DNA of 64,000 nt from NCBI RefSeq assembly GCF_000373245.1, contig NZ_KB890756.1, positions 1 to 64,000 on the forward strand, in the 5' to 3' direction. The stretch comes from Echinicola pacifica DSM 19836. Lineage in GTDB: Bacteria; Bacteroidota; Bacteroidia; Cytophagales; Cyclobacteriaceae. The notes under the pieces are model-generated. The model made no database searches. It was not told the origin of the DNA and was given only the letters and a program-made list of their open reading frames with translations. Within the stretch, counting starts at the first letter, position 1, and each line of letters starts with the position of its first letter. Shown here one piece after another: positions 6,686 to 11,520 of this stretch. Made by a program: the position numbers and the translations under genes.

Positions 6686-7411
6686 TTATTCAAACATTTC
6701 GTCTGTCAATTCCTGATTGAATTTCACCGTCTGAATGAAAGCCTCCATAGGCATAGGCATCATGGAATTGGAAATAACCATTTTGGTAGGAATCATCAGT
6801 CCTTCTCTTTCTTCGTAATTCAGGTACTCGATGGTGCCCGCAAGCTCAGAAACGGTCTTGATTTTCAAACCGGTCTCTTCACTGTAATATTCGTAGGTTT
6901 CGGTTCCATTCCCATCCTCGATCAATAACTTATGGGATTTCACGCCTTCCTCTTCCTCTAAACCAGCGTAGGTAACGGTATAGCCCAGATCTTCATAATA
7001 AAGCTCTGGAAACACATAGGTTTGGCTCTTCATGGTCTTCAACTGGTCTTCAGTCAAAGCCTGCTCTTGCCCCATACTTATGATTTTACCTTTACCATCC
7101 TTGATGATGGTCTTTGCTACTTGGTCACCATTCATTTCAGTGACATTGAGCAGCCTGTTATTTTCCTGATCCGTCACTGATTTGACGATCAACTTCATAC
7201 CTTGGATTTCGGTCTCCATGGTCATCTGCATGTTTTTAATAGCAGAAACTCTTTCTAAGCCTCCTGCGGCTTTTATATACTTATCCACCACAGACTTCAC
7301 GGTCGCCTCCTGGCGGTATTCTATAGTCGCTGAATTATACTCAAACCCCTCCTTTGCCTGCACTGAGCTGATCATCAGCGCCGCAGTCATTGTGAAAATC
7401 ACCTTCTTCAT
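6686..7411 (-). CDS. LolA-like periplasmic protein, stand-alone copy of the M16 C-terminal domain
   Basis: A 241-residue exported protein with a signal peptide (about 1-19). The mature part from about residue 38 (VVDKYIKAAGGLERVSAIKN) resembles LolA/LolB-type lipoprotein-binding beta folds often annotated as outer membrane lipoprotein-sorting protein in Bacteroidota. It is clearly homologous to the last 206 residues of the upstream M16 protein: shared blocks include Y-x-A-x-GG, EIQG, D-x-KGKI-x-MGQE, T-YVFPE or F-FPE, ETGLKIK or ESGLKIK and the MPMP/IPMP end. It starts 9 nt after that gene, the third member of the operon. Its ligand is unknown. Confidence 0.8.
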   Translation of the reverse strand: MKKVIFTMTAALMISSVQAKEGFEYNSATIEYRQEATVKSVVDKYIKAAGGLERVSAIKNMQMTMETEIQGMKLIVKSVTDQENNRLLNVTEMNGDQVAKTIIKDGKGKIISMGQEQALTEDQLKTMKSQTYVFPELYYEDLGYTVTYAGLEEEEGVKSHKLLIEDGNGTETYEYYSEETGLKIKTVSELAGTIEYLNYEEREGLMIPTKMVISNSMMPMPMEAFIQTVKFNQELTDEMFE

Positions 7412-7420
7412 ATTTATTAA

Positions 7421-9469
7421 TTATTTAAAATTTTCATCATTCATTTCCACATTCAGTTCCAGGCTCTCCACTGTGGTATTGAGTGGCATTGGAATCATGG
7501 ACGTCTTCACCACCATGCTCATTGGATAGCGTATCCCTTGGCGCTCTTGGTAGTCATTATAATTGATATCGCCTGTTTTTTCATTTTCACTCTTTATCTT
7601 CAGGCCAGACTCCACACTGTAATAGTTCACCGTGGTCGCCCCAGTAGGATTATTCACGATCACCTTATAGGCATCCTGTCCATCCACATCCTTCACCCCA
7701 TCCAGTGTCAAGGTGTACATCAAGGACTCATAGTGAGCTTCGGGAAAGACAAACATATTCATTTTCACTTCTTCAAATTGCTCGTCGGTAAGCTCTTTTT
7801 CCTGGCCCATCCCTGAGATCTTTCCTTTATTATCGGCCAAGGTGGTGGTCGATACCACATTCCCTAACATCTCTACGGTCTGAGCATAGCGACTTTTTGC
7901 TTCATCATGGTAAGAAGTCATTTTGATTTTCTGACCTTGGATCTCCGCATTCATCACAACTTTTGCCGTCTTAATAGCTTCCACAGCCTCCTGACCTCCT
8001 ATGGCTGTCAGATAGTTTGAGATGACTTTTTCGGCCGTCATATCAGCATCCACCATCTCCATCTCACGAGCAGGATCACCCCAGATATCATATTCCTGAA
8101 CGGCCCCTATAGCTTCCAGCTTATCTTTGATCTCAGCGCCATTGCCCACCACAGTTATATACATATTATCCGGGTGAATATACTTCGACGCTGCGGCATT
8201 GATATCCTCTACCGAAAGTGCACTTAAACGCTGCAAATAGGTCTTATAGAAATCCTTTGGCAGACCATATCGCTCAATATTTATAGCAAAATTGGCTAAA
8301 GTCGATGGGCTCTCCAGCGATCGACCAAAACTACCACTCAAACTGGCTTTGGCAGATTCCAGCTCATGCGCTGTAACTCCTGAAGCCTTGATTTTTGCAA
8401 TCTCGCTTACTAATTCATTTACTGCTGAGTCGGTGACTTCTGTACGTACCGAGGCTTCTGCGGAGAAACTAGTCACATATCGATCAGTGCCAATGCTACT
8501 GTATGCGCCATAAGTGTATCCCTTGTCTTCCCGAAGATTCATAAATAGTCGTGAAGAAGATCCACCACCCAGGATATAATTCAATACACGGGCTTTTAGG
8601 TAGTCAGGATTATCAATGCTCATCTCCACCGGATAGGTGATATTGATCACCGACTGAACAGAGGATGACCGATCAACCAAGGCGACCTGACGTCCCTCTG
8701 GTGAGGCAGGAATTGGAACATCCTTTTGAGATACTTCACCCTTTTCCCATCCAGAAAAATGAGCTTTCACTACTTTCTCTGCTTCTTCTTTGGTAATATC
8801 GCCCACGATGGCCAGATAAGAGATATTAGGCTTAAAGTAAGTTTCATAATACTCTCTGATATCATTGACATTCACATTCTGCAAACTAGCTTCAGTTTCT
8901 ATTTCTCCATAGGGATGATCCGCTCCGAAATCCAGCTTAGCTGCCAATCGGCTACTTATGGCATCAGGATTATCCTTGCTTGTAGCTAGCGCAGTTAGCG
9001 ACTGCTTCTTTAGCTTGTCGAGCTCCTCCTCAGGGAAGACCGGGTTAAACATCACATCTGACATCAAGGTCAATATCTTTTCTTGGTGCTTCTTCAGCGA
9101 GGAGCCATACATGGAAGTAGAGCCCGCGCGCAAGGTAGCTCCAATGAAATCTACCTCTTCATCTAATTCTTCTTTGGTTCTATTGGTCGTCCCCGCCATC
9201 AGCATCTGACCAACGAAGCCGGTCATACCTGCTTTATCCTTTTCAAGTATTGGTTTTCTATCAATGACCAGAGAAAAAGTCACGCGTGGTAGCTTGTGAT
9301 TTTCCACTACAAAAACCTTAAGACCATTATCCAAGGTAAAGGTCGCTGGATCATCCAGCTCAATGGTCGGTGCCGGTCCAGGTTCAGGATAATTGCTCCT
9401 ATCCACCTGAGCCATACTCACAGCCGATATGGCCATGCAAAACATAAAATATATAAGTATCTTTTTCAT
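7421..9469 (-). CDS. M16 (insulinase) family inactive subunit fused to a LolA-like domain
   Basis: A 682-residue exported protein (signal peptide about 1-20). Residues 40-470 are an M16 peptidase in which the HxxEH zinc motif is replaced by GFVGQ (84-88), so it should be catalytically silent. It keeps the R/Y segment SSSRLFMNLREDKGYTYGAY that beta subunits supply to heterodimeric M16 enzymes. Residues 477-682 form an extra LolA-like domain homologous to the separate downstream protein. It lies 27 nt after the active M16 gene. I infer a periplasmic alpha-beta M16 protease in which the fused domain binds substrate or a hydrophobic ligand. Confidence 0.85.
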   Translation of the reverse strand: MKKILIYFMFCMAISAVSMAQVDRSNYPEPGPAPTIELDDPATFTLDNGLKVFVVENHKLPRVTFSLVIDRKPILEKDKAGMTGFVGQMLMAGTTNRTKEELDEEVDFIGATLRAGSTSMYGSSLKKHQEKILTLMSDVMFNPVFPEEELDKLKKQSLTALATSKDNPDAISSRLAAKLDFGADHPYGEIETEASLQNVNVNDIREYYETYFKPNISYLAIVGDITKEEAEKVVKAHFSGWEKGEVSQKDVPIPASPEGRQVALVDRSSSVQSVINITYPVEMSIDNPDYLKARVLNYILGGGSSSRLFMNLREDKGYTYGAYSSIGTDRYVTSFSAEASVRTEVTDSAVNELVSEIAKIKASGVTAHELESAKASLSGSFGRSLESPSTLANFAINIERYGLPKDFYKTYLQRLSALSVEDINAAASKYIHPDNMYITVVGNGAEIKDKLEAIGAVQEYDIWGDPAREMEMVDADMTAEKVISNYLTAIGGQEAVEAIKTAKVVMNAEIQGQKIKMTSYHDEAKSRYAQTVEMLGNVVSTTTLADNKGKISGMGQEKELTDEQFEEVKMNMFVFPEAHYESLMYTLTLDGVKDVDGQDAYKVIVNNPTGATTVNYYSVESGLKIKSENEKTGDINYNDYQERQGIRYPMSMVVKTSMIPMPLNTTVESLELNVEMNDENFK

Positions 9470-9496
9470 GAGTCTGTTCTTAATCAGGGTTCAAAA

Positions 9497-10828
9497 TTAC
9501 TGCTTCGATTCTGCAGGTTTAGGCAAATAATATAAAACAACTCTGCCATCAAGAGTTAAATACTTATTCGCAACCCTCTTCAAGTCATCACGGGTCACTT
9601 CTCTGTATTTTTCTAGCTCCATATTGATCTGATTGGTATTTCCATAAAAAACATAGGACTGAGCCAGGTTCCCTGCGATCCCATCCAAAGAGGAATTACC
9701 ACTCACCACATCATTTTCAATAATATTCTGAAGTTTCTGAAAATCCTCCTCAGAAACTCCCTCCTGCTGAACCTGTCTGATTAGTACATCAATTTCTTTT
9801 TCCAAGTCTTCGGCTTGTACGCCCATATTGGCGATTCCATACATGATGAAAATACCACCATCTTCCAAATCTAGAGGAATAGCTGCCACCGCCAACGCCT
9901 TCTGCTGCTTATCGACCAGCTCTTTGGTCATCAGGGAGGAGTTGCCACCAGTAAGGTAGGTACTCAACATATCCATGGCATAGGAATCCTTATCGGTTTT
10001 AGGAGGTAAATTATACGCTTGGATAACTGCTGGAATCTGGATATTATCATAGATCACATCTCTAATTTCCGCCGTCTTCTTAGGCTCCACTATACTTGGG
10101 CGATAGATTTCCTTCTGTCCTTTAGGAATATCAGCAAAATACTCCTTCACCCATTCCTCCGTTTGCTTATAATCTATATCTCCGGCTATCGTCAGTGTGG
10201 CGTTATTCGGTACATAAAACTCCTTATAGAAATCCATAAACTCCTGCAAAGAAGCCGCGTTTAGGTGATCGAGTGAGCCGATAGGGGCCCATTGGTATGG
10301 GTGCTCCGAATAAGCTCTTAAGAGGGTCTCAGGCAAAATCGTCCCGTACGGCTGATTGTCATAGCGCTGGCGCTTCTCTTCCTTCACCACTTCTCTTTGG
10401 GTATCCACGCCGATCTGATCAATCTTGGCATGCAGCATTCGTTCACTTTCCATATATAGAGCTATTTCCAACTTATTGGACGGAAGCGTCTCGTAATAAT
10501 AGGTGATATCATTGCTGGTATAGGCATTGAGCGTGCCTCCTTCAGATTGGATTTTCTTCATATATTCACCTCTGCCAATATTCTCACTTCCTTCAAATAA
10601 TAAATGCTCAAAGAAGTGGGCAAAGCCTGTTCTCTCCGGATCCTCATTCTTTGATCCTACATGATAGAGAACTGAGGTGACCACGATAGGCGTGGTATTG
10701 TCCTTATGCATGATCACATGCAGCCCGTTGTCTAGCGTAAACTCCTTGAATTCAATGGAGTTTTGGGCTATTGCTGGCACTGACAACATTCCAGCAAAGG
10801 CCAATGCCAAAAAACTAGATTTTTTCAT
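9497..10828 (-). CDS. M16 (insulinase) family zinc peptidase, active subunit
   Basis: A 443-residue exported protease (signal peptide about 1-21). HFFEH gives zinc ligands H71 and H75 and base E74; E151 in REVVKEEKRQR is the third ligand at the usual distance. The C-terminal M16 half lacks the R/Y pair, which is found in the neighbouring inactive subunit instead. This split is the hallmark of heterodimeric M16 enzymes. First gene of a three-gene operon; the best promoter match is at 11139-11172, which would give a leader of about 300 nt. Confidence 0.92.
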   Translation of the reverse strand: MKKSSFLALAFAGMLSVPAIAQNSIEFKEFTLDNGLHVIMHKDNTTPIVVTSVLYHVGSKNEDPERTGFAHFFEHLLFEGSENIGRGEYMKKIQSEGGTLNAYTSNDITYYYETLPSNKLEIALYMESERMLHAKIDQIGVDTQREVVKEEKRQRYDNQPYGTILPETLLRAYSEHPYQWAPIGSLDHLNAASLQEFMDFYKEFYVPNNATLTIAGDIDYKQTEEWVKEYFADIPKGQKEIYRPSIVEPKKTAEIRDVIYDNIQIPAVIQAYNLPPKTDKDSYAMDMLSTYLTGGNSSLMTKELVDKQQKALAVAAIPLDLEDGGIFIMYGIANMGVQAEDLEKEIDVLIRQVQQEGVSEEDFQKLQNIIENDVVSGNSSLDGIAGNLAQSYVFYGNTNQINMELEKYREVTRDDLKRVANKYLTLDGRVVLYYLPKPAESKQ

Positions 10829-11172: not shown

Positions 11173-11398
11173 CAAGTTTATTGAATGATAAATGATTGCA
11201 CTCAGAATTCCCTGTGGTATTTCAGATATTATTTACCAAAAACAAACATTAATATATAGGACAAGGCGGTAAATCCTTAGTATCGCTAGACTCGAAAACT
11301 ATAGAGAAATCATATGGAAGAGGGTCGGATATAAGATGTAAAGGAAATGAGAAGGATTTTGAAAGGGCTATTTTATATCCACTGGGTGGACAAAAAGA

Positions 11399-11425
11399 AA
11401 GGGATACACCACACATGTATCCCTT
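11399..11425. repeat. Perfect 10-bp inverted repeat (terminator-like on the minus strand)
   Basis: AAGGGATACA (11399-11408) and TGTATCCCTT (11416-11425) flank a 7-nt loop. On the minus strand the stem is followed by TTCTTTTTG, so it could end a minus-strand transcript, yet no annotated gene ends here. Confidence 0.5.
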
Positions 11426-11520
11426 CTGACGTTAATCAACACGAGAATAAAAAAATCACCAACATAGTAATGAAAAAATAAAATCTTGATCTAAATCAGT
11501 TAGGCATTTTAACAATATTG

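Follow-up and report, generated by a model that had tools for sequence, protein, structure and literature searches.

A predicted LolA-fold domain on the inactive subunit of putative M16B peptidases of Bacteroidota, and its free-standing copy

Introduction

Why does a gene unit for a putative M16B peptidase encode the same LolA-like domain twice? The question is raised by a locus on the minus strand of a 64,000-nucleotide stretch of Echinicola pacifica DSM 19836 (contig NZ_KB890756.1, positions 1 to 64,000; the whole stretch is referred to here as the window). Three close genes on the same strand (window 10828-6686) encode, in this order, an active M16B subunit (alpha), an inactive M16 subunit that bears the domain, called D here, at its C-terminus (beta), and a free copy of D. 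The physiological substrates of bacterial M16B peptidases are mostly unknown (review PMC12731061). We report that D has, judged from a structural model, a LolA-superfamily fold, that it is fused to beta throughout the phylum, and that the free gene appears from the phylogeny to be a later duplicate. We tentatively propose that D captures peptides for the peptidase.

Results

Domain D and its fold

The beta open reading frame (ORF), taken from the ORF list, spans positions 7421-9469 on the minus strand and encodes 682 amino acids (aa), the last 206 or so of which form D (residues 477-682; positions 7424..8041, minus strand). The next gene (6686..7411, minus strand) encodes a protein of 241 aa that consists of D behind its own signal-peptide-like N-terminus. 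A preliminary description of this DNA had taken the fused and the free domain to be homologous, and had named a lack of homology as one finding that would refute it. Homology was confirmed by the alignment of residues 478-682 of beta with the free protein, which covered 205 residues without a gap, with 40% identity and 63% positives (E 5e-52).

The LolA-like nature of the domain, claimed in the same description, was its weak point when judged with sequence profiles. The free copy reached 10.8 bits with Pfam LolA_like (cut-off 30), the fused copy matched neither LolA nor LolA_like in Pfam, and no Pfam gathering score was reached by D; weak LolA_like matches were present in 9 of the 39 members of the D family. 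When solved structures were searched with the sequence of the free protein, only chance-level matches to YdhK were obtained (E 0.35-0.65), and a match of the free protein to GrpE in NCBIfam was also discarded as chance (E 0.0037, 17 bits vs 201).

The fold was assigned from an AlphaFold model of free D, built on an alignment of four sequences from the window and L034, with a predicted local distance difference test score (pLDDT) of 88.4 and a predicted template modelling score (pTM) of 0.82. This model matched the LolA-superfamily structures 3bk5, 4z48 (a DUF1329 protein), 9tp6 and 3buu with Z values of about 16-17 over 190-197 residues, the value being 16.1 both for 3buu and for LolA3 of Porphyromonas gingivalis (9tp6, 193 residues aligned). 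The matches to LolB structures had Z values of 10-13 (13.3 for LolB of P. gingivalis) and those to proven LolA proteins of about 8-10, and RseB/MucB appeared at about 7, below the 13-16 of LolA3 and LolB. D is thus clearly predicted to adopt a LolA-superfamily fold, in the free copy from the model and in the fused copy by homology. The likeness to LolA holds at the level of the fold, and by sequence D is a family distinct from LolA proper. A prediction of full-length beta, also from a four-sequence alignment, was not used (pLDDT 48, pTM 0.39).

Methionine accounts for 5-6% of the residues of D versus 2-3% of those in the M16 portions that accompany it, which fits a flexible hydrophobic groove, and a hydrophobic loop at the C-terminus of D, PMxPMP, keeps its M and P residues conserved. 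The free protein, with 241 aa in all, ends with the LolA-fold domain and has no second beta domain such as that of RseB/MucB. Mature free D has no cysteine in any row of the alignment and no lipobox close to any site where cleavage would be plausible, and so lacks the N-terminal lipidated cysteine by which a LolB is recognized. In the genome of the window, a weak third match (C16, E 0.18) was to a stretch of an unrelated membrane protein, and a search with the family profile detected the two copies of D and nothing else.

Spread of the fusion

Orthologues of beta were surveyed across 118 genomes from the family to which the window belongs, with a threshold of at least 489 bits, and in a 395-genome sample of the phylum, in which matches with E 3e-126 or better were accepted. 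The family survey yielded 71 loci in 70 genomes, and in 69 of these loci the open frame was of fused length or cut by the contig end; the two unfused beta proteins (G049 and G113) were of 480 aa. Among the 96 genomes of the phylum sample with a beta orthologue, the frame had the length of a fusion or was ended by a contig edge in 95, and was unfused in one (G268). In more distant lineages, versions of beta of about 690-800 aa were found. These counts argue that the fusion is old and almost fixed on beta. The D-beta fusion is ancestral and phylum-wide in Bacteroidota.

The M16B pair

Alpha (9497..10828, minus strand, 443 aa) and the M16B part of beta, which holds two M16 domains (8066..9469, minus strand), both have signal-peptide-like N-termini, and both proteins exceed the Pfam M16 cut-offs. 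The zinc site of alpha comprises HFFEH at residues 71-75 and, 76 residues after the last His, the third ligand E151; it was conserved in 47 of 47 orthologue rows, and the arginine/tyrosine (R/Y) pair is missing from the corresponding site of this subunit. In beta, GFVGQ aligns to HFFEH and an HxxEH motif was present in none of 47 orthologue rows; the Arg and Tyr of NLREDKGYTY were invariant (27/27) and align with chain B of 3amj, the inactive partner in the Sphingomonas heterodimer. The assignment of an active subunit with HFFEH and no R/Y pair and of an inactive GFVGQ subunit with such a pair, already made in the preliminary description, was confirmed. The best match of the inactive part among solved structures was 3amj_B (E 3e-44), and 3amj_C was among the top matches of alpha (E 1e-57).

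At every locus where both were measured, the alpha and beta genes were adjacent and on the same strand, with the alpha gene first. By its sequence features, then, the pair has the testable attributes of an M16B heterodimer: a zinc subunit, an R/Y partner and adjacent genes whose products, of about 50 kDa, have two M16 domains each, with D as an addition on beta. Alpha and beta would be expected to form a heterodimer, as their homologues do, and the N-termini suggest a periplasmic location. At two loci (L093, 2328-4484; L094, 4266-6422), beta has a lipobox-like N-terminus (AFASC and FIGSC, respectively) and is probably a lipoprotein.

The free copy

A search for the three-gene arrangement in other genomes had been proposed at the outset, its absence elsewhere being regarded as damaging. 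When the search was run, 30 of the 118 genomes surveyed in the family proved to have free D directly downstream of the fused gene (counted from the match list), and it shared the strand of that gene at each of the 24 adjacent loci examined in full, that of the window included.

A tree of 71 domains placed 22 of the 24 free copies in one clade, with a bootstrap of 96 and a value of 90 in the Shimodaira-Hasegawa-like approximate likelihood ratio test (SH-aLRT). Next to this clade stood the fused domains from those genomes (98/93), which argues that a duplication of fused D within the family gave rise to the free gene. On this phylogeny, the free gene is younger than the fusion and is a tandem duplicate of fused D. 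The free copies of G045 (Anditalea andensis) and G078 nested among fused domains, and a single origin of all adjacent free copies was rejected (approximately unbiased test, p 0.006); the placement of these two points to gene conversion or to a second duplication.

Pairs of free copies gave non-synonymous/synonymous divergences (dN/dS) of 0.09/1.45, 0.057/1.36 and 0.061/0.91 by the Nei-Gojobori method. For the pairs with estimable dS, dN was 0.06-0.12 and dS 0.9-3.9; dS is near saturation, so that the ratios are rough. By these estimates, the free copy is under purifying selection.

The preliminary description had presented fusion and linkage as two ties of D to the protease. Both were indeed seen, but they are not independent, as the gene that provides the linkage derives from fused D. 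Having arisen by tandem duplication, it may be adjacent simply because this is where it was born. The retention of the free gene beside the pair under purifying selection does suggest, nevertheless, a shared role.

The two kinds of copy differ in their conserved residues. In a DxENxR motif, R86 was present in 24 of 24 free copies and in 7 of 24 fused ones, and in the model it opens strand 3, directly behind the loop between beta2 and beta3. An arginine of this loop, typical of LolA proteins, is reported to be missing from LolA3 of P. gingivalis (PMC13103446), and R86 could be a regained LolA-like arginine. Four residues on one central helix of D (D562, E566, M570 and M572) were conserved in the fused copies only.

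Two further observations concern individual free genes. In G070 and G085 (loci L059 and L069), the free D proteins are 88% identical and the M16 subunits only 58-62%, so that the free gene may have been transferred or converted. In G001 (L067), the fused gene is present and the adjacent free copy is absent, the site holding no long open frame; the same-genus G085 has free D, consistent with a recent loss.

D outside the M16 pair

At six of the loci examined (L136, L137, L138, L140, L141 and L142), D forms the C-terminus of an M1 aminopeptidase-like protein. These proteins, of 866-891 aa, have intact zinc motifs (HEFGH...E), and each either begins with a signal-type N-terminus or has an internal start that is plausible. 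Most of their closest M1 paralogues in the class sample are of 650-690 aa, too short to contain D, so that D was added to M1. The M1-linked domains grouped with an M16-fused D (SH-aLRT 96), on long branches. These fusions are better independent evidence for a link between D and peptidases than the adjacency of the free gene. The argument from linkage as a separate tie is less strong than it seems, and the peptidase link is supported instead by the presence of D on M1 aminopeptidases.

Several other neighbourhoods of D were recorded. A gene for a HAD-family hydrolase (about 204 aa, with VVFDLGNVL) lies near D, free or M16-fused, at L125-L133, L143 and L153. In family f6, free D adjoins the trigger factor gene, or is one gene away from it, at six loci (L157 and L182-L186). 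The gene for a 951-aa single-chain M16 protein next to free D in f6 (L157) was considered as an independent link to M16 and rejected as a main argument, as an M16 gene was present in only 3 of 7 loci (L157, L183 and L186) and the usual neighbour was the trigger factor gene. Distant free D genes adjoin genes for proteins of about 1030 aa at L161, L162, L191, L194, L195 and L197, that of L161, the one tested, having VPS10/BNR repeats. In family f3, free D adjoins genes for outer-membrane beta-barrels (L158 and L159).

Transcript end and upstream region

The three-gene operon proposed earlier agreed with what was found: the reading frames were as described, the intergenic gaps are of 27 and then 9 bases, and a single minus-strand terminator-like hairpin follows the third gene. 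This hairpin (6612-6576, minus strand), identified by pattern match only, has 17 pairs and a T-rich tail and lies directly 3' of the free D gene; no other minus-strand hairpin of this type was detected by the pattern scan inside the unit. It would mark the predicted end of the three-gene transcript.

Upstream of the operon, no tRNA was found and no RNA element scored above the Rfam gathering threshold. A non-coding block of about 90 bases (window ~11394-11479, minus strand), 88% identical across two genomes of the same genus, contains a 12-pair terminator-like hairpin (11426-11398); this block, which had no Rfam match above threshold, is a possible candidate for a small RNA.

Discussion

The reading that we put forward for the locus is one of capture and presentation. 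The alpha-beta pair would be an exported, periplasmic clam-shell M16B peptidase, with alpha active and beta inactive. The LolA-fold arm at the C-terminus of beta would bind acylated or strongly hydrophobic peptides in its hydrophobic groove, candidate ligands being lipoprotein fragments and shed signal or membrane peptides, and would pass them on to the catalytic chamber. In this way, the pair would rid the envelope of peptides that otherwise adhere to membranes. The free copy, which has an export signal too, would work as a soluble carrier or feeder for the same class of ligands. A role in substrate capture, perhaps of lipoproteins or hydrophobic peptides, had been suggested in the preliminary description and is plausible. 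A peptidase with intact catalytic motifs, N-termini like those of exported proteins and a fixed LolA-fold arm is most simply taken to handle what LolA folds bind, acyl chains or hydrophobic peptides, and capture and presentation is the likeliest role. The ligand class is suggested by the fold, as modelled, and by the methionine content. The presence of D on M1 enzymes makes its association with peptidases a recurrent one, and in MucB a lipid-binding LolA-fold groove is known to control proteolysis (PMC7400510). Bacteroidota carry many outer-membrane lipoproteins, and a phylum-wide LolA-fold arm on an M16B enzyme allows a concrete guess about its substrates. As a whole, the proposal is held tentatively, its chances falling a little short of even.

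Four observations weigh against it. The model of full-length beta failed (pLDDT 48), and no placement of D relative to the chamber came from it. The LolA fold is also found in proteins with non-lipoprotein ligands, such as VioE and EPDR1. Three genomes keep an orthologous pair without D (L179, L180 and L181). Finally, in three families (f35, f46 and f3), a D of the fused lineage stands alone, with no M16 pair within the 6-10 kb examined, and an orthologue of beta is absent from these genomes. Neither D nor the pair strictly needs the other, which argues against an obligate partnership.

The last of these observations bears on an alternative in which D would be a lipid, pigment or peptide carrier in its own right, joined to beta only to fix co-expression and stoichiometry, and the peptidase would not act on its ligand. 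As the solitary domains lie inside the tree of fused D, they point to loss of the M16 part, and hence to a D that is useful without M16; the loci where the pair was lost and D kept are L125-L134. At 8 of the 9 f35/f46 loci, where D survives alone, the HAD-family gene is next to D or near it, and it is also a neighbour of D at two fused loci (L143 and L153). Distant free relatives occur in contexts as varied as those of the trigger factor gene, the VPS10/BNR protein and the beta-barrel genes, and the free copy of the operon has a conserved motif of its own. Co-expression, however, would require neither a near-universal fusion to beta nor the repeated joining of D to peptidases, and we regard an independent carrier as unlikely.

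Docking, in turn, would mean that D tethers the peptidase, either at the outer membrane or at machinery that assembles lipoproteins or outer-membrane proteins, with the free copy competing for the docking site or occupying it. The lipobox-like N-termini of beta at L093 and L094 (AFASC and FIGSC) favour membrane attachment at least there, and both the hydrophobic PMxPMP loop, with its conserved M and P, and the position of free f3 domains beside outer-membrane beta-barrel genes agree with a function of this kind. Nevertheless, most beta proteins and free copies have ordinary signal-peptide-like N-termini without a lipobox, and a plain tether would not be expected to retain a whole methionine-rich LolA fold. 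A paper on the beta-barrel assembly machinery (BAM) complex of Bacteroidota makes no mention of a peptidase or of M16, and so lends no support to a link with BAM. Docking is likewise unlikely.

A lipid-sensing gate, in which D would cover the chamber and open or close it upon binding lipopolysaccharide or a mislocalised lipoprotein in its groove, much as RseB/MucB act on the target of a serine protease, with the free copy tuning the threshold, is very unlikely: RseB/MucB are among the fold relatives of D, lipid in the groove of MucB leads to release of MucA for cleavage (PMC7400510) and the helix with D562, E566, M570 and M572 is kept in fused and not in free copies, but the similarity to RseB/MucB is weaker than that to LolA3 and LolB (Z ~7 vs 13-16), their second domain is missing and no signalling partner is evident in the operon.

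The capture reading can be extended beyond this operon. The LolA-fold module might serve across Bacteroidota as an exchangeable receptor for exported M16B and some M1 metallopeptidases, feeding them acylated or membrane-sticking peptides; the envelope would then have a route set aside for the disposal of lipoprotein fragments, to which a soluble feeder copy was added in one lineage. In this general form, the proposal is doubtful. With its repeated gain, release and loss, D offers a tractable example of how a binding module can pass from one enzyme to another.

The architecture must be apparent in very many annotated genomes. The open-licence literature searched held no description of a combination of M16 with a LolA domain, and neither "LolA" nor "Bacteroid-" occurs in the text of a 2025 review on M16 peptidases (PMC12731061). 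The sources searched also held no description of periplasmic clearance of lipoprotein fragments or greasy peptides in Bacteroidota.

Among LolA-fold systems, LolA3 of P. gingivalis (PDB 9tp6) is among the solved folds nearest to free D (Z 16.1 over 193 residues) and, like D, is a Bacteroidota protein whose function is unknown; it reportedly has neither the arginine of LolA nor the leucine of LolB (PMC13103446), is only 12% identical to D and differs in standing alone, not joined to a peptidase. In the same phylum, LolA1-3 and LolB1-2 of Flavobacterium johnsoniae (PMC11885536) share the LolA/LolB fold and are exported, and the text of that survey of five proteins contains none of the words M16, peptidase or fused. 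A separate canonical LolA is encoded on another contig of the window genome, so D would be an addition to the Lol pathway and not its LolA. RseB/MucB share with D a LolA-like half-barrel, which in their case is N-terminal and controls proteolysis through its lipid-filled groove (PMC7400510), but they are two-domain proteins that protect an anti-sigma factor, have no fusion to a peptidase and match D less well in fold. On the peptidase side, the closest parallel is SPH2681/SPH2682 of Sphingomonas sp. A1 (PDB 3amj; MEROPS M16B), in which, as in the window pair, a subunit with HxxEH...E is combined with an inactive R/Y partner. The inactive subunit of Sphingomonas has 424 aa and no extra C-terminal domain, whereas the beta subunit of the window has the LolA-fold domain added, with its free copy following in the next gene.

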